This document shows, one piece after another, positions 6,601-56,964 of a stretch of DNA of 64,000 nt (position 1 is the first letter of the stretch; each line of letters starts with the position of its first letter). The notes under the pieces were generated by a model that saw only the letters and a list, made by a program, of their open reading frames with translations, had not been told where the DNA came from and did not search any database. The DNA comes from a virus. The stretch is taken from positions 1-64,000 of the IMG/VR virus record IMGVR_UViG_3300025138_009100; one strand, given 5' to 3'. The translations under genes and the position numbers were made by a program.

Positions 6601-9600
6601 ATACCGACAACGAATTTGAATCTGACTGGAATGTTCTTCGTGGTTCATCAGATTCGTTTTATATTGACACTAACAGTAGTGATTTGAGAGTTGGGTACTG
6701 CCCGTCTTCTGGTGTTGGTTTTAATATGTTCTTGTTTGAGTTTGGTCTTTCATCTGGAAATATTGTCGAGTCAAATCCTGACGCTACACATAAAGAAGTT
6801 ACTGCTCAAAAATTCTTTGAAAACAATAGAGTTTACTGGTCTGACGAAAAAGAGGGAGTCGCTAACGACACTTCTAAACTTTGGGATTATGTAAATGAAA
6901 ATACATATAGCGATTGGCATATAGGCGCGTTTAAGCATTGTTACTTTAATTTTGAGTTTGATAATCTTGGAAGTAGAACTGGTAAGCGAACTAACAGGGA
7001 TTTAATTAATTTTAATATAAATCATCATGGCTCAGGGTATTCTCAGTATGCAACCCTAGAAATGCCTACAAGTATAGACTCTGGAGTTTCTTATCATACT
7101 CAAATAGAAAACGATTTTCTTAGGTTTCACCTAAGTGATACTCCTGATAATTTTTACTCAGCTTATCCTAGAGTTAGTAAAAACTTACCTCATGGATACA
7201 ACTTTGCAGAAAAAGCCTTAGTTGTAGAAACAATACTTGATCATAAATCTGATAGTCATAATATTGTATGGGAAGACGGTAGCGTCGGACCTAAACTTAT
7301 AGTAAGTCTCTATACAAAGAATCAAGAACCAGAGCATCCTTTGGTTGAGCCATTCACAGAGCCTAACTGGGGCCTTGTGAATAGAGCTATACATTATCTA
7401 CCACCTTCTAGCTGCTTGATGAGATTTGACAGTACGTTCAACTATGATGATTATTGTGATGATTCTGAACAGTGGGCGCTATTCCCGCATGAGCCAAGAT
7501 TAACAGAGTTGACAGAGAAGTATTTCTCTAAAGATGTTGACGATATGTTTTTGCAATATGATTTGGTGTATCCATCTGGCCCAGCTTTTGATTCTCGTAT
7601 TGATATGCACACATGTCATGTGAGAGCAGAAGACGCTTTTGTAAATGCGACTGCTAATTCTGGAAGCTTTAATTTATATGCTAGTGGCGATCCTAGCCCT
7701 GTAGTCAATAGTTTAGATCTACATCTATTTAGTACTTCTGGTATGGAAGATTCCGGTTGGGGTCCAGCAAGTGGTCTTAACTTGGTAACACTTGGGCCAG
7801 TGAACGTTAGCGACTCTGGTTTTATACTGTATGCTAGTGGCGAAACAATTTCTACAGGCGCTTTATCTGCGTTTATTGACGGTCACATTTTAATTAAAGA
7901 ATCTGGCTTTAACTTAATCGCTTCTGGTGACGGTAGAACTTGGACTTCTTACCCTCCTGCGGGTGATGGTGTTGTCGGAGGGATGATTGTTGGCGAAGAA
8001 TTTGTTGTTGGCGCTGCTCCAACGATTCCTCCCTTGCCGATGTTCGTGTATGGAAAAGGAGTTGAAAGCGGCATATTACCATTAGTTGTTAATAACAATG
8101 AATCAGCATCTTCTCCAGATGGCCCTGTTCTTCCGCTGTCACTATTTCCTTCAAACCCCGGCTCTGGTGGTATACGTGACTTCATGCCAGTATATATGTT
8201 GCAAAACTTTGCGAATGAGCCGGGACCAAGATCTGGAACTTTGGATCTAAGTATTATTGGCGCTGCCGCACTTTCTTCTAGATACAGAAACGCATCTACA
8301 AACCTGTCTTTACGCGCACCAGATCAGCTACCTCTTCTAGAAAAAATGAATATCACTTTATATGGTGATAATTTATCAGAAGTTGTTTCTACTGGTAGTT
8401 TAAATTTGTTTAGTTCAAATTACACTGGATTTAATACACCGTTTTATCTTTGGTATAATAATAACTACGGAACTGGAATAACACTTCAAGACAATCAGAT
8501 TGCTAGCGTTGATGTAGGCGATGAAATTCGCGGCGTTGACCTGTTTGGTTACGGGTCATGCACTGGTGACAGTCCTAGAAAAGCAGTAGACTCTGCGTTA
8601 ATTACAGACGATACTATCTGGAGACCAGAAACATGCAATGAAGGCGGTATATTCAGAGCTACTCAGACTTATACAAATTTGAGTGCTGGATATAGCGGAA
8701 ATTATTACGGTATAAGAAAACTACAAGGTCTTATTCCAGACGCTCCATATATTACAACCCTTAAAATAACAACGGGGTCTACAGAGGCTATTAAAGTACC
8801 TAGAGATTGGGAAGAATGGGAGTATGGAACCTGTGGGCCAGATACGATTGGCGGTTGTTGTCCAGATGACCCTTGCTCCAGAAATATAAACTTTAGTGGA
8901 ATCAAGTTGATTGGCGACTACCCCTATCTAAGCGGTCAGCCTGCCCTTTATGATTCTAGCTCTAGGCTGGCTGGAGACAATTATGGACGATCCGTAGCAG
9001 TCAAGAAAGACCTAATGGTAGTGGGCGCTCCAAAGCATAAAATATATGACGAAAGAGGTGATCTATTAAATGACGCTGGTGCTGTATTCTTGTATAGAAG
9101 AGACGAAGATCTTGCAGGACTAAAAGCAGATTGGGCGTTAGAGGAGAAGATAATACTTCCTTCTGGGTATAGACAAGACTACATCAGTGAAACATATCAA
9201 AACCTTCTATGCTATCCTAACAACTTAGCTAAAGAGTTCTGTATTTCTGGTCAACAGTGGAATATAGGTCAACAGGGTAGAGAGTTTGGTCACTCGTTAG
9301 ACTTGGCAAGCAGTGGAGACAGAGAAACACTTGTAGTTGGTGCGCCGGGAGCTTATTGGAACAGGACATTTGAAGACATTGTTGTTTCAGGTGTGCCTGT
9401 ATTTATGCTTGTGTTTACCGATAAATTTTCATACAACAAAGAGAAAATTGCCGCTATAGGTAACACTGCTTTAAAATATGATATACTGTACAAATATTTT
9501 TCTGCACCTTGGGTTCTTGATGGGTCTCAGTTCCAACCTGAGCTAGATATAAATGTTCTACTATGTCAAATTTACGATAACGATCAAAAAGACAGCTTAC

Positions 9601-12600
9601 CAAAAGTTAGATCAGATAAACCTTGGTTCCATCACTTATACATAAATAATTTACTTGATGACAATGAAGATCCTGCGGTATTAAAAAACACCGCTTTGAG
9701 TGGAATACAGAAGAAGTTCTTTGAAATGTTCCCTTACGGAGACGCTCTTTATAGCGGTGTTCCTCCTATTGTCGGAGTGTTTGGTGACGATACTCCATCA
9801 ACATTCAATAAAGCTGCATTCCAGCCAGCGCTAGATGAATTTTTGTCTTTCTATCAAGAGTACGCATATGAAAGTGGTATTAAAGACTTAACGAATGACA
9901 CCTCTCAGTCCGGGTATGTTAAGCAGATTTATTCTGATAGTTTTGCTTGGGACAAAGCTTCTGTCAAAATACTTAGTGATACTTTGGCTACCGGAAATTT
10001 ACTCACGCAAAAACAATCTAGATTCCCAGACTACAACTTTACTGGCAATCCAGTTATGAATTATGTAACCAGTGGAGTAGGTCAAGAGTGGGCTAGAAGT
10101 AATTCTTATGAGTTTCAAATTCCGCCAGAATCTGGTGGTCGTGCTTACATCTTTGAAAAAGAGAATGGTAGATTTAACCTTGTGCAAGAGATTGTTTCTC
10201 CTCAAGAAGATTTACAGCTTTTTAGCAGTGATGATTTCGCAGGGGCGATGGACCAGACAGGACTTCCATACGGAACAAAACCAAACGACAGGTTCGGCCA
10301 TTCTGTTTCAATAAGTAACAATTCTGAAGTTGTTACTATTGGATCTCCTTACTCAACAGAAGCTTGCTTAATCTATGAGCGAGACGAAAAAGAAAACACA
10401 AGAATGTATAAGAAGATTAGAGAGTGGTTAGTCTCTAAGTCTTTGGACGAAGAAGTTACAAAGTATGATAATCTCCTAGTTGTGTCTGGAGAGTTACAGG
10501 TACAGAAAGCGACATATAACGAGCTTAATCAAACTAATAAGTTTGCACTAAGAACAGACAAGAGTTTTTGGGGTAAAACTCCTATTAATTTATATAAGAA
10601 AATATTCAAGTACGACTACACAGATATTGCGTATACAGGAACTTGGGGTTTCATTCCTCAAGAATTTGCTGGAACTTCTAGACTTGGTTACAGTACCGCT
10701 ATTAGTGAAGACGGCGGCGTAGCAGCTTTTGGTGCGCCAACAGACTCCTTTAATGAATTTGATGATTATAACGTGTATCACAGGTCAGAGGATACTTGGG
10801 CTTCTTATATGCAAGCTGGAGCGGTTAGGGTATTTGAATCTAGAAGGTATCACCCACACAGTGGTGCTGTTGAGTTCACAAGGTTTGGAAATCTTGACAG
10901 AAGCGTTCATGGTTCTGGAGACATGGCTCAGTTCTACGACCAGATGGGTCTTTATCTCAAGCCTAAGAATATTTCGTTTGAAAGACTTCCGTTTTCCGAG
11001 ATAGAAATACCCGAAAGCGCAGGTCTCGCATTTATCATTACTCCTGAATTAGATGCTGCTAGTGACGAAATTATAGATAATATTAAATCTTGGCTTGCTC
11101 TAGGTGACAGAACTTTAGTTCTGGCTGGTAACGACCCAATCTGGGAAGAGAATGGACTATACTTCGATTCTAATAAAATAGTAAATAAGATTCTTAAAAA
11201 GCTTGGATCAAGAATGAGACTTGTTCCTGCTAGAAATGAATATGAATCATTAGTAGGTGGTGTTTCTGAGTTAGATTATAATAATGATAAATACAATGTA
11301 ACCAAAGCATTTATTCCTGAGTACATACATGATACACATCTAACAAATAATAATATGTTTGCTAGTGGTGTTGCAGATATTAGAATAGATATTTCCGATT
11401 TGGAGTTACAAGATTTACTACTACATTCTCCTTGTGATACAATTAACACAAAGTGTGAGCATACTATTCAGCATCTAGGAGATTTGAGAACACAGTGGAA
11501 CTCTGAGTGTATTGTTGCCGGTACTCCTCCCGGTAAAATAGAATACAAGACAAACTGGCCTTTCCATTTTAATAATCCAAATCCAGCAAGAGGTTGCAGT
11601 TTCTGGCCTCAAAATCCAAAACCTTATGTAGATCGACCGGGAGAGGCAATTAGACCTGTCCTCACGGCTGCTGAACACATAACACCACCACCAGTTATTA
11701 TACCTGCTTCCAGCGGCGAAGATAAAAAATGCACTACCAGTCTTTCTGGGATTATAACGACTACTTATGAAACAAGTACTAAACTCTATGAATTTGCCGA
11801 CACGCAACTTGACGAGTTGGCGTTTTCCATAAGTCAACCCTCTGGATCGTTTCTGTCTGGAATATTTGAAGATTTTACTAGAGGTGAGTTCTTTGACCCA
11901 GAGCCTTTTGAGACTAGAAACTCATTCATGCAAGCCGCAGGTACTTCTTACGAAGTAGATGTTCCTCCTAGTGATTTTGTTGTTTCGCCAGAGAGTGTTT
12001 GGGCCACGGAAGAGTCTTACTACAACAACTCCGTTAACACTAACTCTAAAGTAATACTGTTTGCTTCTATGCAGGCTGAAACAGATTTTGCTGTAGGTAA
12101 GTCAAATAACGCAGGAGAAGATCCTAATAATAAAGATCAAAATATATACTTCTACAACAACCTTGTTTCTCAGGATTGCAATAGCGCTGGAAACATTATT
12201 CAGCTTGGTGGCTGGACGGGAAGAGACTCTTTCAGTTCTGCATTTGCTAATTCGGCAGTAGCCAAGGTCTTAAAACAGGGACAGCATGAAGTTTCTTCTG
12301 GAGTGATATTTACTGAAACTGATTCAATTTCTGTTATACATAATGTCGTCTGGATTGCAGATCCTATCGCCAAACCTTCTGATTCAGATATAAATAGAAT
12401 CAAGAACTGGTTAGATACAGGAGATAAAAAACTCGTAATAACATATTCTAACAGTCAAGAAAAAGCAAACCACGTAGAGTATATTTGTGATAAGTTGGGA
12501 TTGAACACTAAGCCTTACTACTCTAAGGCGAACGGCGCGTATTTTGTTCAGGATACAGATCTGATAGCTCAAGGTAACACTCAAGCTATACCTTATGATA

Positions 12601-15524
12601 ATACGGGAGGTTTTGAACCAGCCCAATTGATTGATGAGACCGCATCTGTGTTTATAGGATGTCCTGACGGATATGCTTTCAACGCAATTACAGCAGAGAC
12701 AAAAGTTGAAAAACTTGCAATTATTCCAGAAAACGCCAACCCTATTGATTACTCTTCGGAGATAGACTTTACTACGGGTTACACTGAGTATGCGTTTATT
12801 CCGCTCAAGGTTGGCGACAATACTAAGAAGTTGGTTCGCTATCAAGCGCCATTAATCGAGAAAAGATACAATAATCCTTATGTTTACTGGAAGATAGACG
12901 CTAATGCTAGCTCTGACTTTAAAGTAGTTCCAAACTCTGGATATAAAATGTTTATAGATTATATATCAGAAAGCCCCGACGAGAAGTACGATATAACCCT
13001 AGATATTGACGGCGTTTCTTTCTCTCCTTATCCAGATGACAGAGAAGAGTCTGGAGATGGAAACGTAGATGATAGCAGTAGAAAACTACAAAGAACAGAG
13101 ACTTATAAAAAACAAACGAAGATATTTGACTTTAGGGTTAAGAAAGAGATTAGCGAGATATCGTTAAGACTTGACACTAAAGAATGGAGACAGATTAAGA
13201 GCGAAGACTTTGATGGAAATAGACCTTTGACACCAAGAGTTATTTCTGTTTCAGGTTGCCCTCTTCCGATCAATGTCGAAACAATAACATCAACAAGAAC
13301 AAAAGAAAGAAAGATTTATATCACTAAATGCTCTGGTGTACCTTGGTATAACCCAGAGCAGGCTATTACTTTTGATCCAGAGTTTAGACCTATTAAAACT
13401 CTTAATGATAAATATTGCTCGTCCTCTCCTGCTTGCGATGGATATGGAAATCAATTTATTGAAGATGGCCCTGTCATCGCGGCAGATGAGCTAGAACATT
13501 TTACTACGTTTAATGTGGGTAGGAATAGATCTAGAATCGTTCTTCTTTCCGACTCTACTATAATACAAGGGCAATCCCCTTACTTCATGAATGATGCTAT
13601 AGAAGAAAACCAAAAGTTTATTCGTAGCCTGTATCCGACAAGTCCAGAAAAATACGGAAACATGGAGTATAGTGAGGATACAAACTTTGTTGACGGAGTC
13701 AGGAAATTCTCATTTACTCAAAAAGTCTTGTCTCCACAAAGAGGAAGTGCTGCTAAATATTACGCTGCTAGTGGCTTGGATAATTTAGTAGAAAGATACA
13801 CAATAGGAGGTGTTGCCGGGTCTCTGCAAAACTATACAGATTCTGAGAACAACAAAAATCCCGGAGATGTCTTTAGAGAGTTTTCACCAGAAACACCCGA
13901 AAGAGTAGAACAAGAACTAGAAAGGTTTGGCGAAGATATTATCCCTATCTACGGAGTCTATCCAAGATATAGCGGGATTATAGACGGCAAGCTTTACATA
14001 GATGCTGGAATAGAGGGTGGCATTCCAGATTTCATGGTAGATAAAGATAAAGATTATATTGATTTTGATATGCTCGCTTCTGGATATGCTGGCGATCTGT
14101 TTGGCATATCTATTGATATTCATGAAGACAAGTTAATTGTTGGCGCGCCATTTAATGGATTCTTAAATGAAGATATTGAATCATGGTCTGGTATATATAA
14201 TTTACATGAATCTGGCGCTATAGGGTCTGGCCTCAAATTGAGTGGTAACGGTGGTGCTGGCGCTGCATTTTACTACGAAAGAACTGGACGTGGAAAAAAT
14301 GCTGTTTCAGAATTTCTACCTTGGGAATTCCAACAAAAAATTAGACCTAGTAGTATCAATGTTGGCATAGAAAATTCAACACTAGGAAAACTTAAAGAAG
14401 AAAAAGCCCACAAGCCAATTAACATTACTAGTGATTTTGTTATGAAGAATGCAATCATGACAGATAGATTTGGATATTCGGTTTCAATAGATTCTGACTT
14501 TGCTGCCATAGGCGCGCCTGCACACGATTTTGAGACAATCCATGATCACATATATAGTGGTAACGCTGCGTTTATAAGAAAAGAATTTGGTGGACAATTT
14601 GATATTCCTCAACATTCATTCTTTGACCTCGGAAGCTCTGGTGTAAGGATAGACGATTTCAGTAGAACTAGTGGAGATATGGTGTTGAATAATGGCGCAG
14701 TCTTTACTTATCGTCACAAAATTACAAGTTGGACAGCAAGATCTAAGAAGTGGGTTTATGCGCAAAAAATGAATCCAGAAGGATACAAAGATAGAAATAA
14801 TGTAGATCCTACTGGTTGTGAAAATGATTTCTTTGGTTTTTCTGTTGGTATAGATAGAGCTAGACGTGGAGATAGTGATTATGTTCTGGTTGCGGGTTCT
14901 CCTAATCACAACTTCTCAACCAGCGGAGATCATCCAACGCAAACACTTGAAGACGCTGGAGCTTCATACACCTTTGACGCCATGCTCAGAGAACAAATTG
15001 CCTCCGTACCTAATTCTGGGAGCTATATTGACGCTCAGGTATTTGGACACAAGCCGGAAAGCCAAGCGGACAGGTTGAGAAATATTGTATACCAAAACAC
15101 TACAGGTCAGCAAGAAGGCTATGAAGTAAGCGGAATAATAATTGCAAATGAAAATGGAGATGTGTTCATAGAAGTTTCAGGCCAAGACCCCGCAGAGAAG
15201 GGGTTCGTTGCTCATCGTCCATATGTAGAATATGTTAGAGGTGAGTTAATTTCTGGAACAGGTGTCAATCAAGAGTTTAATTTGATAGCGTCTGGAAGCC
15301 CAGTTTCTGTTAGTGGACAAATAATAAACTTATCTATTCCCGGTCCATCGTCTGATATAGTGTATAATAATGTGAATCTATATAGTTTCGGATCTTACGT
15401 AGGAAGCGGAGACATGCCTTTGTACATGCAGGTTTATAGCGGTATTTATAATAATTCTTTGAATTTGAATTTAACTAGTACTCAAACCATAGCGAATCTA
15501 AATTTAAGGATGAGGGGTAAATAA
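654..15524 (+). CDS. Giant 4956-residue multidomain virion/adhesin-like protein
   Basis: This single uninterrupted frame covers almost a quarter of the window. Residue positions are approximate. Residues 140-500 carry repeats of the type SxDG..hAV (for example near 141, 270, 332, 415, 482), which look like a beta-propeller. Residues 550-640 match a Calx-beta domain (YNVNEGAGSVELTIVR, then a DEDF-like turn). LamG/concanavalin-like domains lie near 800-985 and 1866-2036. Repeats of the form NLYASG occur near 2340-2430 and again at the C-terminus. A Cys-rich patch lies near 2730. FG-GAP/integrin-alpha-like repeats (FGHSV...VVGAP) fall near 2771, 2877, 3211, 3341, 4478, 4604 and 4724. Two GATase/ThuA-like Rossmann segments lie near 3450-3500 and 3890-3955. 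The position after the tape measure suggests a tail-tip or fibre component that binds glycans or proteins on the host. Start: ATG behind AAGGAC. It ends in a TAATG overlap with the next gene. No whole-length homologue is recognised. Confidence 0.72.
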   Translation: MKSCETISVTMEGVGSFNSTASVDLGASQELIGKGSITSPDIEKICTSKKLITTAIGSGPLYDITIDEDIEDHHRSYFDDNTIPVEAVIEYDRTLEKPEILKALLGGEQFWLSPSLYDPNYEIQQDYLEYLFTRGENQNVTRILKSKLSGDGSRLAVLVDKDLDSDSKYYIRLFIFQRSGDRWTRIENIKVREDTLHINEYYGQRNTLPSIDIDYDGDTVVLCDPQELEGIGQLKIYRLDTTTNKYLSIDGDLIIGSYSIFNSRVRVGPDVSISDDGEIVAVSEREPTSSIYFGGNVLVYKRNSSTEIWEQLGVKLSQQTGRYARINTFGEKICLSSDGLRLIVLVLDTDNYYYSTSESVKTKINVYDYQDSSWVKTKVLDSFKIDPGEGAIDTTDNYNFDEDGYRQESWTPAFDISISSDGSTVAFGATDPYQDVAYSEARSGKVEIWKEGSGDWESLIIEPDYIRERNDFERFDPVSLGRIIQLSNDGNKVLIAQSQAACIYEYSLDGPSIVSGSANIIIGDNDIASSFFSEDNFDSFIIGSTTENRGKFGFDKTTYNVNEGAGSVELTIVRTEGFKGKVSVSYQTVSDTAIANEDFIPKNSVITFAEGETQKKINIKIIDDSDIEGEHQFSVKITDVSVLQEPTYFVVGQTTLEGWVKVSQIDTFYCPAITFNDNVARTFSSNFLITDVSMSQDGSYVNILKNNWFWDEYHNYGDDSFSNVIYKVDYTRPLNKLDYDTLGSNYINWNQAHISCKNILQNGTTPIHPDSVQDYRSIDCLHDAGVRTAGQSDHSIGRVLAADHQSIEENMTFSFFINGEFEGTLLRLVEDQKSVNDILIKLKNNSSQESSNTVEVQVYDSQFLSNDPHKSHILRGLTQAQNSTTEIKSPSYDSSWNHYVITIDSTSISPSIKVYENGEFISSTPLKVKLTPCFGAYLELYDGQRCIDDNAGCDSVDNKYLAFDDIRIFNREISRDEVKLLASHRKRVTLNEIYYYDYLGDSNGTFSLEYNRSTYTDTPINKFCVNNVIDECGTIDCVIDARISFCYNSNLPNIVPVFGLYASGISGLGFIEGNSPPRLQIEQYHSKELEGVGRIFTEGAVGQYSLTQKISGISDLSTGFADKYNGDFFDLSCVQKLYPSSDISSIGFVSSEGENTLFPRIDEGVYEGDWKIDSTRISDDSQSYIQLIAPDTEGSFSYKCGMTNTLVDPEDSVIKFRLSGPTSTFDCGVPPKYTISNIKLEDPQGTLIVQYEDIIFIGDSDFTNDINYTTVVRQEKINNVKGFYRWGDNYPTLDSGNAPNGFSLSFDIDAEDPGAEFTLGYNQAFKESTTRSSLGQLNPALRISAIEICSSGRLSNYQEEYINLMTPVVDTGRRIEKCFHPTFFPKFDFDTGVWPSVSSVWYANGDASLSNQSSQGSIQLLENIRDSEDTTFATLHSMGSIENSGKLTLRFGYSPTSQQQVEAGSFSDAFGEGRNKRDNIWFSPLGAFSGLTTTDQDIDHNYFEFDSITLKVRAKKSSGSRDYVLDVVGYSDDCLINVTPAVGGFLQNTSGVILPDHSDDSLVFYGNTGSIPTTSGFKDVDDLGLSTEPFSNKDEYFESSTTNNDGGDHYLLTTYPTVTSTDFEWYEIPLKVYDDNVDLGASRKYNLSSLLERLYLDIYPLPTGAAISNIHLCVRYAPQNAFNLMSQGGERIRSIQDGRTEGSYYPTSRQSNDQMLNAGSGLSPLSYISGIPQAFTTPDSIKSNYSRRWRGMEGTVQGPYDVDQFGFGFSNPLLDYPFLSGFYLFEDNSTSIKPVVGGLEGTLTTSYNNFHFTNIGWRFSNSGIFEDQKPGYSSAHTTTDWTSLSNGSNNLQGHELYGQIADAFKHAVRISGDNSFINFGNTHYGTEGDQGLSVYMRFTPDINVSGTNYDCFESGVLVSKWDAGQDMEFTLAYSGGYLAARAKDSQTGNIKEVYDTVPYSGYQFPLSVIMTYNDDESQKLKLYTDNEFESDWNVLRGSSDSFYIDTNSSDLRVGYCPSSGVGFNMFLFEFGLSSGNIVESNPDATHKEVTAQKFFENNRVYWSDEKEGVANDTSKLWDYVNENTYSDWHIGAFKHCYFNFEFDNLGSRTGKRTNRDLINFNINHHGSGYSQYATLEMPTSIDSGVSYHTQIENDFLRFHLSDTPDNFYSAYPRVSKNLPHGYNFAEKALVVETILDHKSDSHNIVWEDGSVGPKLIVSLYTKNQEPEHPLVEPFTEPNWGLVNRAIHYLPPSSCLMRFDSTFNYDDYCDDSEQWALFPHEPRLTELTEKYFSKDVDDMFLQYDLVYPSGPAFDSRIDMHTCHVRAEDAFVNATANSGSFNLYASGDPSPVVNSLDLHLFSTSGMEDSGWGPASGLNLVTLGPVNVSDSGFILYASGETISTGALSAFIDGHILIKESGFNLIASGDGRTWTSYPPAGDGVVGGMIVGEEFVVGAAPTIPPLPMFVYGKGVESGILPLVVNNNESASSPDGPVLPLSLFPSNPGSGGIRDFMPVYMLQNFANEPGPRSGTLDLSIIGAAALSSRYRNASTNLSLRAPDQLPLLEKMNITLYGDNLSEVVSTGSLNLFSSNYTGFNTPFYLWYNNNYGTGITLQDNQIASVDVGDEIRGVDLFGYGSCTGDSPRKAVDSALITDDTIWRPETCNEGGIFRATQTYTNLSAGYSGNYYGIRKLQGLIPDAPYITTLKITTGSTEAIKVPRDWEEWEYGTCGPDTIGGCCPDDPCSRNINFSGIKLIGDYPYLSGQPALYDSSSRLAGDNYGRSVAVKKDLMVVGAPKHKIYDERGDLLNDAGAVFLYRRDEDLAGLKADWALEEKIILPSGYRQDYISETYQNLLCYPNNLAKEFCISGQQWNIGQQGREFGHSLDLASSGDRETLVVGAPGAYWNRTFEDIVVSGVPVFMLVFTDKFSYNKEKIAAIGNTALKYDILYKYFSAPWVLDGSQFQPELDINVLLCQIYDNDQKDSLPKVRSDKPWFHHLYINNLLDDNEDPAVLKNTALSGIQKKFFEMFPYGDALYSGVPPIVGVFGDDTPSTFNKAAFQPALDEFLSFYQEYAYESGIKDLTNDTSQSGYVKQIYSDSFAWDKASVKILSDTLATGNLLTQKQSRFPDYNFTGNPVMNYVTSGVGQEWARSNSYEFQIPPESGGRAYIFEKENGRFNLVQEIVSPQEDLQLFSSDDFAGAMDQTGLPYGTKPNDRFGHSVSISNNSEVVTIGSPYSTEACLIYERDEKENTRMYKKIREWLVSKSLDEEVTKYDNLLVVSGELQVQKATYNELNQTNKFALRTDKSFWGKTPINLYKKIFKYDYTDIAYTGTWGFIPQEFAGTSRLGYSTAISEDGGVAAFGAPTDSFNEFDDYNVYHRSEDTWASYMQAGAVRVFESRRYHPHSGAVEFTRFGNLDRSVHGSGDMAQFYDQMGLYLKPKNISFERLPFSEIEIPESAGLAFIITPELDAASDEIIDNIKSWLALGDRTLVLAGNDPIWEENGLYFDSNKIVNKILKKLGSRMRLVPARNEYESLVGGVSELDYNNDKYNVTKAFIPEYIHDTHLTNNNMFASGVADIRIDISDLELQDLLLHSPCDTINTKCEHTIQHLGDLRTQWNSECIVAGTPPGKIEYKTNWPFHFNNPNPARGCSFWPQNPKPYVDRPGEAIRPVLTAAEHITPPPVIIPASSGEDKKCTTSLSGIITTTYETSTKLYEFADTQLDELAFSISQPSGSFLSGIFEDFTRGEFFDPEPFETRNSFMQAAGTSYEVDVPPSDFVVSPESVWATEESYYNNSVNTNSKVILFASMQAETDFAVGKSNNAGEDPNNKDQNIYFYNNLVSQDCNSAGNIIQLGGWTGRDSFSSAFANSAVAKVLKQGQHEVSSGVIFTETDSISVIHNVVWIADPIAKPSDSDINRIKNWLDTGDKKLVITYSNSQEKANHVEYICDKLGLNTKPYYSKANGAYFVQDTDLIAQGNTQAIPYDNTGGFEPAQLIDETASVFIGCPDGYAFNAITAETKVEKLAIIPENANPIDYSSEIDFTTGYTEYAFIPLKVGDNTKKLVRYQAPLIEKRYNNPYVYWKIDANASSDFKVVPNSGYKMFIDYISESPDEKYDITLDIDGVSFSPYPDDREESGDGNVDDSSRKLQRTETYKKQTKIFDFRVKKEISEISLRLDTKEWRQIKSEDFDGNRPLTPRVISVSGCPLPINVETITSTRTKERKIYITKCSGVPWYNPEQAITFDPEFRPIKTLNDKYCSSSPACDGYGNQFIEDGPVIAADELEHFTTFNVGRNRSRIVLLSDSTIIQGQSPYFMNDAIEENQKFIRSLYPTSPEKYGNMEYSEDTNFVDGVRKFSFTQKVLSPQRGSAAKYYAASGLDNLVERYTIGGVAGSLQNYTDSENNKNPGDVFREFSPETPERVEQELERFGEDIIPIYGVYPRYSGIIDGKLYIDAGIEGGIPDFMVDKDKDYIDFDMLASGYAGDLFGISIDIHEDKLIVGAPFNGFLNEDIESWSGIYNLHESGAIGSGLKLSGNGGAGAAFYYERTGRGKNAVSEFLPWEFQQKIRPSSINVGIENSTLGKLKEEKAHKPINITSDFVMKNAIMTDRFGYSVSIDSDFAAIGAPAHDFETIHDHIYSGNAAFIRKEFGGQFDIPQHSFFDLGSSGVRIDDFSRTSGDMVLNNGAVFTYRHKITSWTARSKKWVYAQKMNPEGYKDRNNVDPTGCENDFFGFSVGIDRARRGDSDYVLVAGSPNHNFSTSGDHPTQTLEDAGASYTFDAMLREQIASVPNSGSYIDAQVFGHKPESQADRLRNIVYQNTTGQQEGYEVSGIIIANENGDVFIEVSGQDPAEKGFVAHRPYVEYVRGELISGTGVNQEFNLIASGSPVSVSGQIINLSIPGPSSDIVYNNVNLYSFGSYVGSGDMPLYMQVYSGIYNNSLNLNLTSTQTIANLNLRMRGK

Positions 15525-49939: not shown

Positions 49940-50574
49940 ATATTCATTGTCTCCAAGCAATTAGCATACTCTTTGTAGATATGCTTATGTTTATCAAATG
50001 TTTCCTCATCCACAAACCAATCTTCTACAGGTCCGTATTCATTTAGGCATACATTAGCCCATAATAATTTATATCCGTAGTCTGATAAGACCTTTCTGTA
50101 GTAAGTGTGTTCTTTTAATATATTCTTCTTATGTTCTTCTGATCCATCCTGAGTGCATTCCGGTAAAGACTGGAACAGATTATGCTCTAATGTCAATACT
50201 TTGAATTTATATCTGTCAAAATCAAAATCGTTAAACACTTTTAATTGTGCGTCATCTACGTCTATAGACAGATAATCAATTTCTTCTGGGCAATTGTAAT
50301 CATCTAATACTTCATTTATATTTTTTTCTAGAAGGTCTACACACACGCAATCTGCTAATCTTAATTGACTAGTTCTTGACCACCAATTAGTATCATAGTC
50401 AATAGCTATACCTTTCCAGTTTTTAAATGTCTCAAAATAATAGGTATTGCTATAAAAACCCGGAGTGTGGGTGGGGAGACCACCCGTTCCTGCGCCTATG
50501 TCAACAAAAAACCCTTCTGTTTTATTAACAATTTTGTCCACAAATATATCTTGACAAGCTTGCGCATTATACAT
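49936..50574 (-). CDS. FkbM-family methyltransferase-like protein
   Basis: The protein has 212 residues. It has CQDIFVDKIVNKTEGFFVDIGAGTGGL (motif I), FETFKNWKGIAIDYD (motif II), and IDYLSIDVDDAQLKVF (motif III-like, D-V-D in place of D-V-x-G). It resembles FkbM-type methyltransferases without the strict IDVxGxE signature. It overlaps the genes around it by four to eight bases. O-methylation of a sugar is the likely role. Confidence 0.72.
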   Translation of the reverse strand: MYNAQACQDIFVDKIVNKTEGFFVDIGAGTGGLPTHTPGFYSNTYYFETFKNWKGIAIDYDTNWWSRTSQLRLADCVCVDLLEKNINEVLDDYNCPEEIDYLSIDVDDAQLKVFNDFDFDRYKFKVLTLEHNLFQSLPECTQDGSEEHKKNILKEHTYYRKVLSDYGYKLLWANVCLNEYGPVEDWFVDEETFDKHKHIYKEYANCLETMNI

Positions 50575-52261
50575 TAGCCACCTGTTGACTCTGAGATAGC
50601 TGTTGTATCTTTTGCACTCTAGCTTGCTCCCAATGATTTCTTAAATCACACTGCATCTTCATTTGATCGTAAGCAACGTTAAAATTAAAGGGAGTTCTGT
50701 GGTTCTGGCCGTCGAAAGCGGCGGAAGACTCATTAAAATACATACCTCCAGTAGAAGAGGTACTTTGATTGTAAATTAAGTCTCTTGTCATTCTAGATTC
50801 AAAGAAAGTATTTAGCTTACTTTGATCTCCTAATACGTTTGTTATTAGCCATTTTGAGAGATGGGAATGATTTTCATTTCCTTTTATCTCAATTTTTTGA
50901 GCAGATTGATGTAGCTTTGGTTGAGATGCCCAACCCTTCTCGTAAGAAACTGGCTCTGTTTCATCAAAATATTTTTCCCAAACAGAACCGCTCAGATGCC
51001 ACTGGTAATATTCTTCAAACTGTTCTCTTGTATGTTCACCCTTGATATATCTCCATTCGTCTGATTTGCTGAAAAAATTCAAGAAATAGTTAGCAGCTTC
51101 TTGATTGTCTGGGACTGCGCGTAAACATCCAGTTTCTAACTCTTTATATAAAGCCGCTGGCTTGATGGGGTATCCGCCTAACTTCCTTAAAACACTTTCC
51201 ATAGCAGAATAATCTGTTCCGCAGACGGGAACCCCACAAGCCGCAGCTTCTACTTGAGGTAGTCCAAAACCCTCAGAGTTTGCATATTGAGTATATAGGT
51301 CAAAACAATTCATAACCTTTGCTAATTCTTCATAGCTTAATCCGTTCTTTACATTAGACAGCGTAGAACCCCATTTGTCAGTATATGGAGACTGAGCTAT
51401 AGCACCTTTAAAGGTTGATACGAATGATTTTTTTGTTTCTGGGCAGATATATGTAAACAACACGTTAGAAGCTAGTTCGTGTTGATGTAATAATTCTGGA
51501 ATATCCCATCCCAAATCTGGATAAGATGTATGACAGTAGAGATAATATTTTTTATTCTCTGACTTATCTAAGAATAACTTGAACGCTTCAAACAAGTCCG
51601 GGTAAAGCTTACGTCTTTGGTTTCGCATGACCGTTCCGATAACTTTATACTCTGGGTCAATACCCATAGAAAGTTTATGCGCATCTTTATCTTCTACAGG
51701 TTTGTAGGCAGGATGAGCAGAAGGGGGCGAGCTACCTAAATAGTTAATTTTACCTCCAGATTGATCTTCTAAAACACCTCCAGCCCAATCAGAGTATGTT
51801 AAACACGCATCTGCGTTAGCGTAAGTGGCAATCCACTGTCTAGCTTGCGGTCTCGCATCTACTGTTGGCATTATAACCCATTTAAAGTAAGGTCTAAATG
51901 GTGAGCGTTCCGCAAAGTCTAACATCCAGAAGTCACGAATATCACAAACAAAATCTGGTAAGAAATCTAAACACACATGCTCAAAAGCCCATCCACCAAA
52001 CTGATTTGTTGGGTTTGAGTTATAGGTATTGATTTCTTCTTCGGAAGATTTTGGTTCGCACTCTGTGTTAGGAGCTACTCCGTAGTATTTCCAAGGAATA
52101 TTTGCTGCTCTAGGGTCATTCTTTTGACCGTAGGATGCCATCTCAGCAATTTCATACTTGCCAGTGCTGTGCAAATAGTTTAGGATTTCTCTAGTATAGG
52201 TTGCATACCCCGTGTTTAGAAAGGTAGCTTCGCTGCAAAACAAAATTCTTTTCTTTCTCAT
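50567..52261 (-). CDS. Large GT4-like glycosyltransferase (564 residues)
   Basis: The protein has 564 residues. The N-terminus RILFCSEATFLNTGYATYTREIL is a GT-B Rossmann start with a GYAxY loop. The C-terminal donor region has YANSEGFGLPQVEAAACGVPVCGTDYSA, the classic EGFGLPxxEAxACGxPV of GT4, followed by about 200 extra residues that are helical and Gln/Asn-rich at the end (QQLSQSQQVANV). The extra region has no visible family and may contact partners or acceptor. It is the first glycosyltransferase of the sugar operon, 1 base after ssb. Confidence 0.85.
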   Translation of the reverse strand: MRKKRILFCSEATFLNTGYATYTREILNYLHSTGKYEIAEMASYGQKNDPRAANIPWKYYGVAPNTECEPKSSEEEINTYNSNPTNQFGGWAFEHVCLDFLPDFVCDIRDFWMLDFAERSPFRPYFKWVIMPTVDARPQARQWIATYANADACLTYSDWAGGVLEDQSGGKINYLGSSPPSAHPAYKPVEDKDAHKLSMGIDPEYKVIGTVMRNQRRKLYPDLFEAFKLFLDKSENKKYYLYCHTSYPDLGWDIPELLHQHELASNVLFTYICPETKKSFVSTFKGAIAQSPYTDKWGSTLSNVKNGLSYEELAKVMNCFDLYTQYANSEGFGLPQVEAAACGVPVCGTDYSAMESVLRKLGGYPIKPAALYKELETGCLRAVPDNQEAANYFLNFFSKSDEWRYIKGEHTREQFEEYYQWHLSGSVWEKYFDETEPVSYEKGWASQPKLHQSAQKIEIKGNENHSHLSKWLITNVLGDQSKLNTFFESRMTRDLIYNQSTSSTGGMYFNESSAAFDGQNHRTPFNFNVAYDQMKMQCDLRNHWEQARVQKIQQLSQSQQVANV

Positions 52262-52262
52262 C

Positions 52263-52583
52263 TTATTCCTTATCTAAACACCCAAAGTCAAATTCGTTAA
52301 TTCTAAATAGAACATCGTCTCTAGCGTCTGTTTTCATGAAGCCGTTTCTAGCCGAAGCGTAGACGGTCATTTTAGTTCCCTTCTTTCCTAGTTTAGCGAT
52401 TGTTTCAGCGCCGCTAGCCCAAGCTTGTAGGGTGATAGTCGTTGGAACCTTTTTCTTTTCTCCACGCTTGTTCTTTCGGTATTCGTAAGTTACCATTTTT
52501 ACGGTACAACAAGCTGGCCCATCTTCATCGCTATCTATCTGTGGGTCATGAAGTAGATACCCAGTAAAAGTGCAATTATTCAT
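52263..52583 (-). CDS. ssb: Single-stranded DNA-binding protein
   Basis: The protein has 106 residues and shows an SSB-type OB fold: NNCTFTGYLLHDPQ, then ACCTVKMVTYEYR, TITLQAWASGAETIAKLGKKGTKMTVYASARNG, and FRINEFDFG. It lacks the usual acidic C-terminal tail; only CLDKE remains. It would coat single strands at replication forks. It is the first gene after a strong promoter and is followed with a one-base gap by the glycosyltransferase cluster, an unusual pairing. Confidence 0.8.
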   Translation of the reverse strand: MNNCTFTGYLLHDPQIDSDEDGPACCTVKMVTYEYRKNKRGEKKKVPTTITLQAWASGAETIAKLGKKGTKMTVYASARNGFMKTDARDDVLFRINEFDFGCLDKE

Positions 52584-52643: not shown

Positions 52644-54206
52644 TTATATTTCATGTATTTTATTAATAATAAACGAACCGTCTTTTTCTACCTCTCCGCA
52701 GAATAATAAATTAAGACCTTCGTCTAATATGTATTTAGTTTTCTCTGTAGTTTCTGGGAAAACTACCACGTTATCAATAGAACATGTTTCATCTTCTAGT
52801 GTTAAAAAACACATGTCCTTACCCTTACTCTTTCCTTTCTTGCATTGATATTTTTGCAGCCTACTGACGTTTGCTACTATGCAGATATCTTTACCGTGTT
52901 TTCCATTTAGTATTTCTTTGCAGCTAGTATTAGAGTGAGATGTGTCAGCCGCTTCTACTTTAGAAAGAGAAATGGGACACCCTAGAAACTTCTTCTCTTG
53001 TTCTACAATCCACTCTGGGTCGTCAGACAGCTCATAAGGAGGATTCTTTATAAAGAATGTCTCATTCTCAATAATCTGTTTTCTGTCTACCTTAGATGTT
53101 CCTCCACCCTCTTTCTTTGTCGGCGCTAAAGATTTAAAAGCATCGTGTAAACTTGTCCATTTTCTTACGGGATAATTAACCGTTATCCATTTTAACTCTG
53201 CTTTTGTAAGATTCCTAAATATAAGGTACTCGTATAGCGCTTTGTTTCTCGTTACACCTGTAGACTTGGTGGAAAAGAATCCAACGGAACATAGAGCCTT
53301 AAAAGCTGTAGCGTTAATCTTAGGAGACAAGTAAATAAGAATGTCCAGCCAAGTTAATTGCTTTGGTTTCTTCTTTGTTTCTTGGCATCCTTCTGCTATT
53401 GCTGTAACAGTTTTCTCTCCGTTAACACCTGTTAAGGATTTAATATCTTTAAGTCCAAAGTAGACATTCTTCTTGTAAACACCGAACTCCTTGCTAAACA
53501 AACTTATGTTGGGTATCTTTACTTCTATATCAAATAACTTTGCTTCTGAGACAAGTTCGTATATTTCTTGATGTGGGTCTTGCTTCTCATTCGCATAGGT
53601 TAGGTATGACAGGAAGAACTCTTTAGTGTGGTTAGCTTTATACCAAGCGCTCTTATAAGAGTTATCTGCATAGCAGATAGCGTGAGATTTATTGAAAGAA
53701 TATCTAGAAGACTTTTCAATCCAACCAAAGATTTCCTCGGCAGTCTCTACGTTTACAGTTCCTTGTTTCACACAACCCTCTAGGAAGTCTTTTCTTACTT
53801 TAGCCATAAGGTCTGCTTTTTTCTTTCCAATCGCTTTACGTAGCACGTCTGCTTCTTTTAAGTTAAAACCGCCAAGCTCTTGGGCGATTCTCATGGATTG
53901 CTCTTGATAGATCAATACACCTTTGGTAGATTTTAATACCTCTGTTAGTGATTCATGTAAATACTTAATCACATCTAGTCCGCTTTTTCTATCAACGTAG
54001 TGCTGAGTCATAGACTTACCATCTGTTATCGCTTTTAGCGATCCCGGTCTAATCAAAGCAATCAAGGCTCCAAGTTCTTCAAGGTTAGTAGGTTGTAGTC
54101 TTTTGGACCAAGCGCGACCAAGATTGCTTTCTAACTGAAAGACACCTTTAGTTCTACCTTCTTTAAAAAGATCCCAAGTCTTTTCATCATTATAATCAAA
54201 GATCAA
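52644..54206 (-). CDS. dnaE: DNA polymerase III alpha subunit, C-terminal part (split)
   Basis: The protein has 520 residues. It begins at TTG 54206 with GAGG 8-11 bases upstream; no earlier in-frame codon is possible because a TAA lies three codons upstream. The first residues, EGRTKGVFQLES, align with the FQLES motif of DnaE fingers. ALIALIRPGSL, GVLIYQEQSMRIAQ, ADVLRKAIGKKK, and YSFNKSHAICYA follow in the usual order. The last 90 residues are an OB fold (DICIVANVSRLQKYQ, MCFLTLEDETCSIDNVVV). There is no catalytic aspartate in this part: those are in the other gene. It should assemble with the N-part (55237-56904) to form the polymerase. Confidence 0.88.
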   Translation of the reverse strand: MIFDYNDEKTWDLFKEGRTKGVFQLESNLGRAWSKRLQPTNLEELGALIALIRPGSLKAITDGKSMTQHYVDRKSGLDVIKYLHESLTEVLKSTKGVLIYQEQSMRIAQELGGFNLKEADVLRKAIGKKKADLMAKVRKDFLEGCVKQGTVNVETAEEIFGWIEKSSRYSFNKSHAICYADNSYKSAWYKANHTKEFFLSYLTYANEKQDPHQEIYELVSEAKLFDIEVKIPNISLFSKEFGVYKKNVYFGLKDIKSLTGVNGEKTVTAIAEGCQETKKKPKQLTWLDILIYLSPKINATAFKALCSVGFFSTKSTGVTRNKALYEYLIFRNLTKAELKWITVNYPVRKWTSLHDAFKSLAPTKKEGGGTSKVDRKQIIENETFFIKNPPYELSDDPEWIVEQEKKFLGCPISLSKVEAADTSHSNTSCKEILNGKHGKDICIVANVSRLQKYQCKKGKSKGKDMCFLTLEDETCSIDNVVVFPETTEKTKYILDEGLNLLFCGEVEKDGSFIINKIHEI

Positions 54207-54576
54207 TTTGTTTTACCTCATTCTTCAAATTAAATTTCAACTCTTCGTAACTCATTCCATACATAGGTTTTTTAGGTATGGGTCTTTTATTGTGAGTTTG
54301 TTCCATGTGACAATTATGACAGAGTATTCTGCATTTCAATATTTCATCTAGTAGTACGTCGTTAGAATACTTTTTACCATAGAGCATAAACATTCCACCC
54401 GCATGGTTCCTTTTAGAGCAACCGTTCTTTGTCATTTCATGTTTATCATTAGTGTTCAAATGATCAAAACAAAGCGCTGATGGATGTTTATCATATCCGC
54501 AAATAGAACAACCATGAGACATTTTAAAAAGATTAATCCAATATCTTCTATGTTCTATGGTCTCTTTATTGTTCAT
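54196..54576 (-). CDS. HNH homing endonuclease
   Basis: The protein has 126 residues. It carries CSICGYDK (CxxC), LCFDHLN (the His of HNH), and CRILCHNCHMEQTH (C-x-x-C and N-x-x-H). The layout matches free-standing HNH endonucleases of phages. It lies between exonuclease and polymerase C-part genes, overlapping them by 4 and 11 bases. No intron or intein sequence is visible on either side. Such enzymes often target the neighbouring polymerase gene, so it may have played a part in splitting it. Confidence 0.82.
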   Translation of the reverse strand: MNNKETIEHRRYWINLFKMSHGCSICGYDKHPSALCFDHLNTNDKHEMTKNGCSKRNHAGGMFMLYGKKYSNDVLLDEILKCRILCHNCHMEQTHNKRPIPKKPMYGMSYEELKFNLKNEVKQIDL

Positions 54577-55250
54577 AGGTAAGTATTTCCATCTGCAAAT
54601 GCTTTTTCAAGTTTTAGGTTTCTGTAAACAGCACGATGTGTCTTCATAAACTTAATCATTAGATTAGCCGTATCCTTAACGTCCTGTAGAGCATCGTGAG
54701 CATTCTCTGTTGACATGCCCATTCTGTCTCTAATCGCGTCCATACTCCTAGATTTTACACTAGGATCTCCCTCTGTCCACATATAATAGTTGTCCATCAT
54801 GTCGATTTTATGAATTTGATGAAACAACTTCTGTCTTTGTCTCTGGTCGTCCCAAGGTCCATGTTCTTTACAAAGCCTATCTACAATAATCATATCGTAT
54901 CCCAGAATATTATATCCCGCAGCAATAGGAGCGAAAAACGAAGTCCCCTTCCAGTTGTACTTGTCCACGAAAGCGCAGAACTTTTTCCACACAACTTTTG
55001 GCTTGGGTGCTTTTGCTATTTCTTCTCTAGTTTGCCCCGTCACTTTAAGCGCACCTTCTTCTATTGGACCCAGTCCTTTTTTAATAGCTTTATCGTCGTC
55101 CGTTTCAGCCCAGATTTTACTATTAAACTCACCCTTGAGTCTAAAATTTCTTCCGTCCAAAGCTATCGCTGCCAACTGAGTTGGTTGACATGTAACTGGA
55201 TTTCTACCACCTGTCTCAAAGTCAAAAACAATTATATCACGGTTCGACAT
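54573..55250 (-). CDS. DEDDh 3'-5' exonuclease (proofreading, DnaQ-like)
   Basis: The protein has 225 residues. All three Exo motifs of the epsilon family are visible: IVFDFETGG (Exo I, D and E), GYNILGYDMIIVDRL (Exo II, D), and ENAHDALQDVKDTANLMIKF (Exo III, H and D). It would remove mismatched nucleotides during replication. It is encoded between the two halves of the polymerase gene, which strongly suggests that it works with them. It overlaps the N-part by 14 bases and the HNH gene by four. There is no visible clamp-binding tail. Confidence 0.9.
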   Translation of the reverse strand: MSNRDIIVFDFETGGRNPVTCQPTQLAAIALDGRNFRLKGEFNSKIWAETDDDKAIKKGLGPIEEGALKVTGQTREEIAKAPKPKVVWKKFCAFVDKYNWKGTSFFAPIAAGYNILGYDMIIVDRLCKEHGPWDDQRQRQKLFHQIHKIDMMDNYYMWTEGDPSVKSRSMDAIRDRMGMSTENAHDALQDVKDTANLMIKFMKTHRAVYRNLKLEKAFADGNTYL

Positions 55251-56904
55251 TATTTTCCTTCATTTTTACGGAATCTGGATTGGCTACAATGTAGTCAATA
55301 TACATAAGTTTATCTAGCAGATTAATTGCTAAAACGTCAAACTTAACGTGACCAAGTGCCTCTAAGTCTGCCATCTCTAACCCTGCTATCTTTTCACTAC
55401 CACTTTTAGGGTTTACCATCGGACAAACTTCTGACAGTCTGTTAGCTGATATAACAACGCCAGCAGCATGTTTACCCTGCGTCTTTAGTGTCCCTTCAAT
55501 CTTAATTGCTTGTTCAAAATATTCTGCATAATCACCTTCAAGATAACCTTTCTCGTTTATGTGACAATAATCATATAGGTCTTGCTCGTTGTTTTGTAAT
55601 GCCCACCTAATAATAGACCTGTCTTCTTCGTCCATTTGAGAAAGTTGATCAGAAATAGCAGCTTCATCTGGGATGTATCTAGTAATCTCATTCATCACAC
55701 TGAATCCACAAGCTTCGTTTACACGTAAGATTTCTTTAATTGCACTGCGTCCCTGTAGCTTACCAAATGTCACCATCTGACTAACGTTACCGTGACCGTA
55801 TTTGTCTTTAATATACGATATGATCTCGTCTCTTTTCTTTCCCGGAATATCTATGTCGATATCAGGAAGAGATATGTTATCCTTGGTGTTTCTACCACTA
55901 TTATAGAAGCGTTCAAACAATAAGTCAAACTCAATCGGGTCAATTTGTGTAATTCCAATCAGATAAGATATCAAACATCCAGCAGCGGAGCCACGACCCG
56001 GACCTACCATCCATCCTTGACCTACCGCATAATTGATAATATCACGAACAATAAGAAAGTAACCAAACAAATCTGCTTCTTCAATAACTTCAAATTCTTT
56101 TCTGAATCTGTCTCCATATTTTTTTCTACCTTCTTCGTCTGTAATCTTGTCCGCCAATATTTCTTTCCATCCTTTTCTAGCCAGCGTCCTTAGATAATCT
56201 TTTTCTGACTCTCCGCTAGGAGTGTCGAATTTAGGAAGAACTGGTTTGCTCAGGATATTGTAGCTTTCGCATTGATTGTATATGTCATCAAGACTTTGCA
56301 ATCCTAAAGGATCTTCTATCATAACTTCTGTTGCTCCAGTTTGATCTGGAACATAAAAGTGAGAAAAGTCAAAGAACTTCTTATTTGGGAAGTCTTCTCC
56401 CTTCTGGTATTTTCTTCGTATCTTAGGAAGAGTAGTCTTCATTTCAGAGCAAAGCAAGATCCTGTGAAGATTGGAGTCTTCTGAATCTGTGTAATGCAAG
56501 TCTTGGAAGCATCTGCTTTTTTTAATCCAACCGTTTCTAATTGGGGAATCAGCGGCAGAGTTCGCTAGAACAATCAAGTCGCCTTTGTTGCAGATCTTAG
56601 ACAGGTCGCTACTATTGTAGTCTCCGTCTTCATTTAACAAAGATACAATTTTAATAAGATCGAACCAGCCGTCTTTGTTCTTTGCAAATAGGGTAAAATT
56701 ATCAAACGAACAGCCTATAATTGGCTTTATGTCATTTGCTATACAAGCTTGATAGAAAGCTACAGCGCCAGAGATAGTTTTATAGTCAGCAATACCGCAG
56801 GCGCGAAAACCATTTTTTTTACATTTCTTTGCAAGTGGTTTAGGTTTAGAAAAACCTTTAAGCAAAGAGTAATGCGTGTAATTACAAAGTGGGAACCAAG
56901 TCAT
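55237..56904 (-). CDS. dnaE: DNA polymerase III alpha subunit, N-terminal part (split)
   Basis: The protein has 555 residues and begins at ATG 56904 with AGGAAA upstream. The N-terminal PHP domain is degenerate: the first metal-binding pair is replaced (CNYTHYS in place of HxH[ST]xYS), and TDH is ADY. The palm has GPGRGSAAGCLISYLIGITQIDP, PDIDIDIPG (two catalytic Asp, about residue 345) and HVKFDVLAINLL (third catalytic Asp, about 523). It ends soon after, at NNVEP, just before the point where DnaE continues into the FQLES fingers region encoded by the other gene. Combined length with that part is 1075 residues, near normal for DnaE. It has a strong own promoter. Confidence 0.9.
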   Translation of the reverse strand: MTWFPLCNYTHYSLLKGFSKPKPLAKKCKKNGFRACGIADYKTISGAVAFYQACIANDIKPIIGCSFDNFTLFAKNKDGWFDLIKIVSLLNEDGDYNSSDLSKICNKGDLIVLANSAADSPIRNGWIKKSRCFQDLHYTDSEDSNLHRILLCSEMKTTLPKIRRKYQKGEDFPNKKFFDFSHFYVPDQTGATEVMIEDPLGLQSLDDIYNQCESYNILSKPVLPKFDTPSGESEKDYLRTLARKGWKEILADKITDEEGRKKYGDRFRKEFEVIEEADLFGYFLIVRDIINYAVGQGWMVGPGRGSAAGCLISYLIGITQIDPIEFDLLFERFYNSGRNTKDNISLPDIDIDIPGKKRDEIISYIKDKYGHGNVSQMVTFGKLQGRSAIKEILRVNEACGFSVMNEITRYIPDEAAISDQLSQMDEEDRSIIRWALQNNEQDLYDYCHINEKGYLEGDYAEYFEQAIKIEGTLKTQGKHAAGVVISANRLSEVCPMVNPKSGSEKIAGLEMADLEALGHVKFDVLAINLLDKLMYIDYIVANPDSVKMKENNVEP

Positions 56905-56935: not shown

Positions 56936-56964
56936 ATTATAGAGGAATAATCAACTTTTGTCAA
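56936..56964 (-). promoter_or_regulatory. Sigma70-type promoter of the split polymerase operon
   Basis: On the minus strand TTGACA (plus 56964-56959) is followed after 17 bases by TATAAT (plus 56941-56936); both hexamers are perfect. The -35 overlaps the final codons of the upstream glycosyltransferase. The polymerase ATG lies about 30 bases beyond the -10, preceded by AGGAAA. Confidence 0.88.

Follow-up and report, generated by a model that had tools for sequence, protein, structure and literature searches.

A DnaE-type DNA polymerase encoded in two parts, with an exonuclease gene between them, in a large group of uncultured bacterial viruses

The stretch of viral DNA analysed here (the window; 64,000 nucleotides of the IMG/VR record IMGVR_UViG_3300025138_009100) carries four overlapping open reading frames (ORFs) on its minus strand between positions 56904 and 52644, in the order N-part, EXO, HNH and C-part (Table 1). 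This split DnaE-type polymerase locus, first described from the nucleotide letters alone, is confirmed as real. The N-part of the polymerase III (PolIII) alpha subunit comprises a degenerate PHP domain, the palm and the thumb, and ends ∼32 residues past the third catalytic Asp. Pfam bears out the original prediction of a PHP domain in this half, which also holds all three catalytic Asp residues (D348, D350 and D523, invariant in 32 diverse members of the family). The C-part had been expected to begin at the FQLES fingers motif and to end with the OB fold. It contains the fingers, an HhH region and the OB fold, the OB and HHH Pfam matches being weak and below the Pfam cut-off; its start, however, lies ∼20 residues ahead of the fingers motif, at a TTG codon with GAGG ∼9 nt upstream.

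Two complete genes separate the polymerase parts, as had been proposed: a DEDDh exonuclease gene, recognised by RNase_T, and an HNH endonuclease gene, which matches HNH PHROGs and has no Pfam match. PHROG_192, to which EXO belongs, is annotated as 'DNA polymerase exonuclease subunit', and EXO is a probable proofreading subunit. Neighbouring genes overlap by 14 (N/EXO), 4 (EXO/HNH) and 11 (HNH/C) bases, within the predicted span of 4–14. The strong promoter placed upstream of the N-part is present as a 12/12 match to the sigma70 consensus, and promoter-like sites with 11/12 matches lie at a comparable distance from the N-part in four relatives (L002, L004, L009 and L012); the genes would be transcribed as one operon. 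A gene for an SSB-like protein follows the C-part in most family members and in the basal lineage. Elsewhere, the window contains a 4,956-aa ORF with Calx-beta, FG-GAP and weak Laminin_G_3 matches (654–15524) and a long co-directional run of minus-strand genes (28881–52261), in which the glycosyltransferase-like gene at 50567–52261 corresponds to a gene located downstream of SSB in the basal locus L343.

Table 1. Features of the split-polymerase locus in the window and, in the last row, of small genes in related loci
Feature	Position	Strand	Evidence and remarks
Sigma70-like promoter TTGACA-17-TATAAT	56936..56964	-	upstream of N-part; consensus match only
N-part of PolIII alpha	55237..56904	-	555 aa; PHP and PF07733 (E 9.8e-69), Pfam/PHROG
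EXO, DEDDh 3'-5' exonuclease	54573..55250	-	225 aa; RNase_T (1.7e-11), PHROG_192
HNH gene	54196-54576	-	126 aa; four HNH PHROGs, best 1.7e-15
377-bp insertion, nearly whole HNH gene	54201..54577	-	flank comparison; HNH PHROGs
C-part of PolIII alpha	52644..54206	-	520 aa; PF17657 DNA_pol3_finger (1.3e-45), Pfam/PHROG
SSB-like OB protein	52263..52583	-	PF00436; position conserved
Small genes between N and EXO in relatives	L161:6611-6787, L184:4917-5090, L046:7063-7308, L067:7071-7289		no Pfam family, only weak PHROG matches

Three scans of viral contigs yielded relatives with protein identities from ∼91% down to ∼40%, among them 220 loci in which N, EXO and C are all complete, about 170 of these being distinct by sequence. 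The comparison of intact and split versions in related phage genomes, suggested with the original prediction, gave this result: in 220/220 complete loci N and C are separate ORFs with the same break and with EXO between them, EXO is fused to N or C in none (0/220), and intact relatives of ∼1,100 aa were also found. Polymerase catalytic motifs are retained in 224/227 and 227/227 loci, and dN/dS values of ∼0.01–0.07 for N, EXO and C reveal strong purifying selection on both halves and on EXO. N and C distances correlate (r 0.86), as shared ancestry alone would also produce. The two-gene polymerase with EXO between its parts is an old and conserved feature of a large group of bacterial viruses of which no member has yet been cultured. 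A cultured family member was sought and rejected, the best isolate match to the C-part reaching ∼35% identity; a cellular origin was likewise rejected, only four MAG contigs having been found, which resemble the viral locus. As regards the host of the window's phage, primase matches are distant.

Alignment with E. coli alpha, through its PDB sequence, superimposes D348, D350 and D523 on the DxD and KFD motifs. The N-part is alignable up to residue ∼564 and the C-part from residue 591, and the break therefore lies in the connector between palm and fingers. In the complete loci the N-part ends at a median of 21 aa past the third Asp, and the C-part starts ∼20 residues ahead of FQLES, where intact sister forms have 21–22 linker residues, so that little was lost relative to the intact linker. 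Each half on its own is confidently predicted to fold as its own part of alpha: the AlphaFold model of the N-part has a pLDDT of 91.1 (with its last eight residues of low confidence) and Foldseek TMq values of 0.70–0.76 to DnaE-type alpha in the PDB, and that of the C-part a pLDDT of 91.5 and TMq values of 0.48–0.66, the targets being full-length alpha. The hallmarks of C-family polymerases are present, namely a Polbeta-like palm with the PDxDxD and KFD Asp residues, and fingers, HhH and OB domains, with the exception of the single polypeptide, which is replaced by two ORFs in every complete locus. The window polymerase is homologous to PolIII alpha and probably works like it, without being a standard one-chain member of the family.

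The split polymerase appears to be the only one these viruses encode. Fourteen large member contigs (149–231 kb) each have one N locus and one C locus (an intein divides the fingers match of contig G005 into two), and neither PolA nor PolB was found in them; as virus records may be fragments, this absence is not proof. The halves are separate genes and the PHP domain is degenerate in part of the family, as might be expected if N and C no longer acted together, one half having adopted a separate role or the whole polymerase being in decay. We consider such a loss of joint function highly improbable, given the purifying selection on both halves, the near-universal retention of catalytic motifs, and the finding of one N and one C per large contig with no other polymerase.

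The original prediction took the degenerate PHP ligands to be consistent with proofreading by the separate exonuclease. PHP is indeed shortened and degenerate in the window's part of the family, but not in the family as a whole: at least three of the four PHP ligand motifs are kept in 93/227 loci, and since these also carry EXO between the halves, EXO occurs independently of PHP loss, and the proposed connection holds only in part. EXO itself preserves its DxE motif in 225/227 loci and its HDAxxDV motif in 190/227.

Most clades, with the window's clade as an exception, have further small genes between N and EXO (Table 1). These belong to two families, the first of ∼60 aa with the motif VSCCKxxNA and the second of ∼72 aa with SICxIND...YQVHCD. 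The clade with the ∼60-aa gene also has a conserved CGCSF-like extension ahead of the fingers (L161:7473-7569, and the C-part N-termini of L206, L239 and L249), which from its sequence is possibly metal-binding.

An alignment-based scan identified 66 one-ORF relatives. In an IQ-TREE phylogeny of N and C combined, the split forms, L275 and the basal L343 among them, all fall into one clade (UFBoot 100), and an intact form of ∼1,100 aa (L283/L288/L273) is its sister (UFBoot 99). The simplest reading of this topology is a single fission, and the gene most likely broke only once. In the basal lineage (L343/G001) the break point is the same, the halves are 12 kb apart and EXO does not lie between them; close linkage is thus not essential everywhere, and the position of EXO may have been acquired in a later step or lost in L343. 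Other, independent breaks of PolIII alpha occur in Cellulophaga phage phiST and Bacillus phage KLEB27-3.

The original prediction associated the fission with a mobile HNH gene, and this part of it is not supported. There are precedents for phage genes split by homing endonucleases (PMC2988022), the PolIII alpha of KLEB27-3 is encoded by two CDSs that flank an HNH gene, and an HNH gene does occupy the gap in the window. However, the whole family is split, nearly always without HNH: the window's HNH type occurs in only five distinct loci (the window counted once), most relatives have no HNH gene at all, and the gene lies between EXO and C rather than directly between N and C. In close relatives with empty sites (L008, L009 and L012), EXO overlaps with C and the sequences that flank the insertion are contiguous, whereas in the window 377 bp are inserted between 54578 and 54200. 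In L012, the C-part starts at ATGGAAACA inside the 3' end of EXO; in the window, ATGGAAATA survives as a relict but now leads into a stop, and the C-part starts at the TTG instead. Other relatives have different genes at the EXO/C border: an HNH_3 gene, one that resembles endonuclease VII, or a member of another ORF family, which has no Pfam match. Nucleases at this border fit the published clustering of nuclease genes near essential phage genes (PMC10448857).

From these comparisons, the present HNH gene appears to have moved in later, at an EXO/C border that already existed, and would be a mobile and dispensable insertion that displaced the original start codon of C. Empty sites, rarity and position lead us to reject it as the cause of the fission. 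The pattern of Aeh1 nrdA, with an endonuclease at the break and an intact gene in relatives that lack it, is not seen here, and a split of the polymerase gene by a mobile HNH endonuclease is very unlikely in general and refuted for the gene now present by the split relatives without HNH. An older mobile element is a possible cause of the original break.

In agreement with the original prediction, no intein families were matched at the ends of the N- and C-parts facing the break (Pfam), and the break region of the window has no Rfam RNA or intron match. The 14-bp N/EXO overlap, together with the EXO/C overlap in relatives with empty sites, leaves no space outside EXO in which an intron could lie. 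A covalent joining of the halves through either RNA splicing or a split intein, to which the inteins found elsewhere in the same polymerase in relatives, some of them split, might lend some plausibility, is in view of these results extremely improbable. With no intein, intron or fused ORF at the break, non-covalent assembly of two chains is most likely, and the expectation that they would have to assemble without splicing is upheld. A sequencing or assembly artefact, conceivable in a record of metagenomic origin, has practically no probability left and is refuted by the same layout in ∼170 distinct loci spanning ∼91% to ∼40% protein identity.

Additional breaks and inteins are found within the polymerase of some relatives. 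In L142, L344, L209 and L245, the N-part has another break, at GPGRG^C, where the first ORF carries the N-terminal sequence of an intein and, in L142 and L344, the next ORF carries intein C-terminal sequence; a short ORF lies between the pieces in L142 (L142:5788-8044) and an endonuclease-like ORF in L209 (L209:2954-6027). These are split-intein 'fractured genes' within an already split polymerase. A second, intein-free palm break just ahead of the catalytic SLPDIDID occurs in L160 (L160:1861-4932), L275 (L275:2326-5174) and L344, with a LAGLIDADG ORF between the palm pieces in L160 and L275. In the C-part, inteins at the FNK^S(H) site, which is also the one used by cyanobacterial split DnaE, are in frame in L142 and L344 and split in L091 (L091:10473-14109), L162 has an in-frame insertion at about this site, and L091 has an HNH-bearing intein earlier in the fingers.

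Taken together, we regard it as very probable that a single fission gave rise to a non-covalent two-chain PolIII alpha with EXO, into whose locus the HNH gene was inserted later. The ancestor of this phage group would have encoded alpha as one chain of about 1,100 aa, which would have been broken once, in the 20–22-residue connector after the third catalytic Asp, and the DEDDh exonuclease gene would have come to lie between the halves. N, EXO and C are most likely translation products of a single operon; N and C most likely associate non-covalently, by way of the palm-fingers interface, to form the active polymerase, and EXO would act as the proofreading subunit of this two-chain alpha.

In the cyanobacterial split DnaE, the chain is interrupted at the FNKSH site and restored by a split intein. 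This enzyme is likewise a split replicative DnaE, but in the window that site is intact (FNKSHA), the break is at a different point, as originally predicted, and lies upstream, and intein N and C parts are absent from the break. With bacterial DnaE (E. coli, Taq, M. tuberculosis) the window family shares domain order, catalytic Asp residues and matching predicted folds, and with E. coli also a separate DEDDh exonuclease; it differs in having two polypeptides, broken at E. coli residues ∼565–590, and an exonuclease gene between them. Group 2.2 jumbo phages have a 'minimal' PolIII alpha catalytic module split into two proteins, with core domains only, encoded by genes that lie far apart, and these phages also have a B-family polymerase (Iyer et al., 2021, PMC7824862), whereas the window family has the content from PHP to OB and no PolB was found in its 14 large contigs. 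Phage genes in pieces include Aeh1 NrdA/mobE, T4 topoisomerase/mobA and Aeromonas phage gp43A/43B; Aeh1 NrdA stays functional in pieces, and Aeromonas gp43 may likewise have been invaded when already split (PMC2988022). These systems resemble the window in having a fragmented phage enzyme with nuclease genes nearby, but involve different enzymes, and in the window family a large clade has the break as a fixed trait and the nuclease gene now present is demonstrably later. Split DNA polymerases have also been reported in Cellulophaga phage phiST (PolIII alpha gp044/gp045) and in an OM43 phage (PMC10580990); that of phiST is broken before the catalytic DxD, and its genes adjoin. A literature search limited to open-licence papers found no published description of the N-EXO-C arrangement.

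Bacterial-type replicases are normally one large chain. On balance, we think it likely that the ancestral replicase of a large viral clade, and the only one it has, is a PolIII alpha that obligately consists of two chains and lacks an intein, that this enzyme is assembled with EXO with the help of the N-EXO-C gene order, and that it represents an ancient, fixed and previously undescribed fission between palm and fingers. A two-chain replicase broken beside its active site would be a natural experiment in dividing and reassembling a polymerase core without splicing. It would account for polymerases whose annotation in viral metagenomes is missing or truncated and would offer a ready-made split polymerase, and the locus provides a well-resolved case of nuclease genes invading an already broken gene, and not the reverse.
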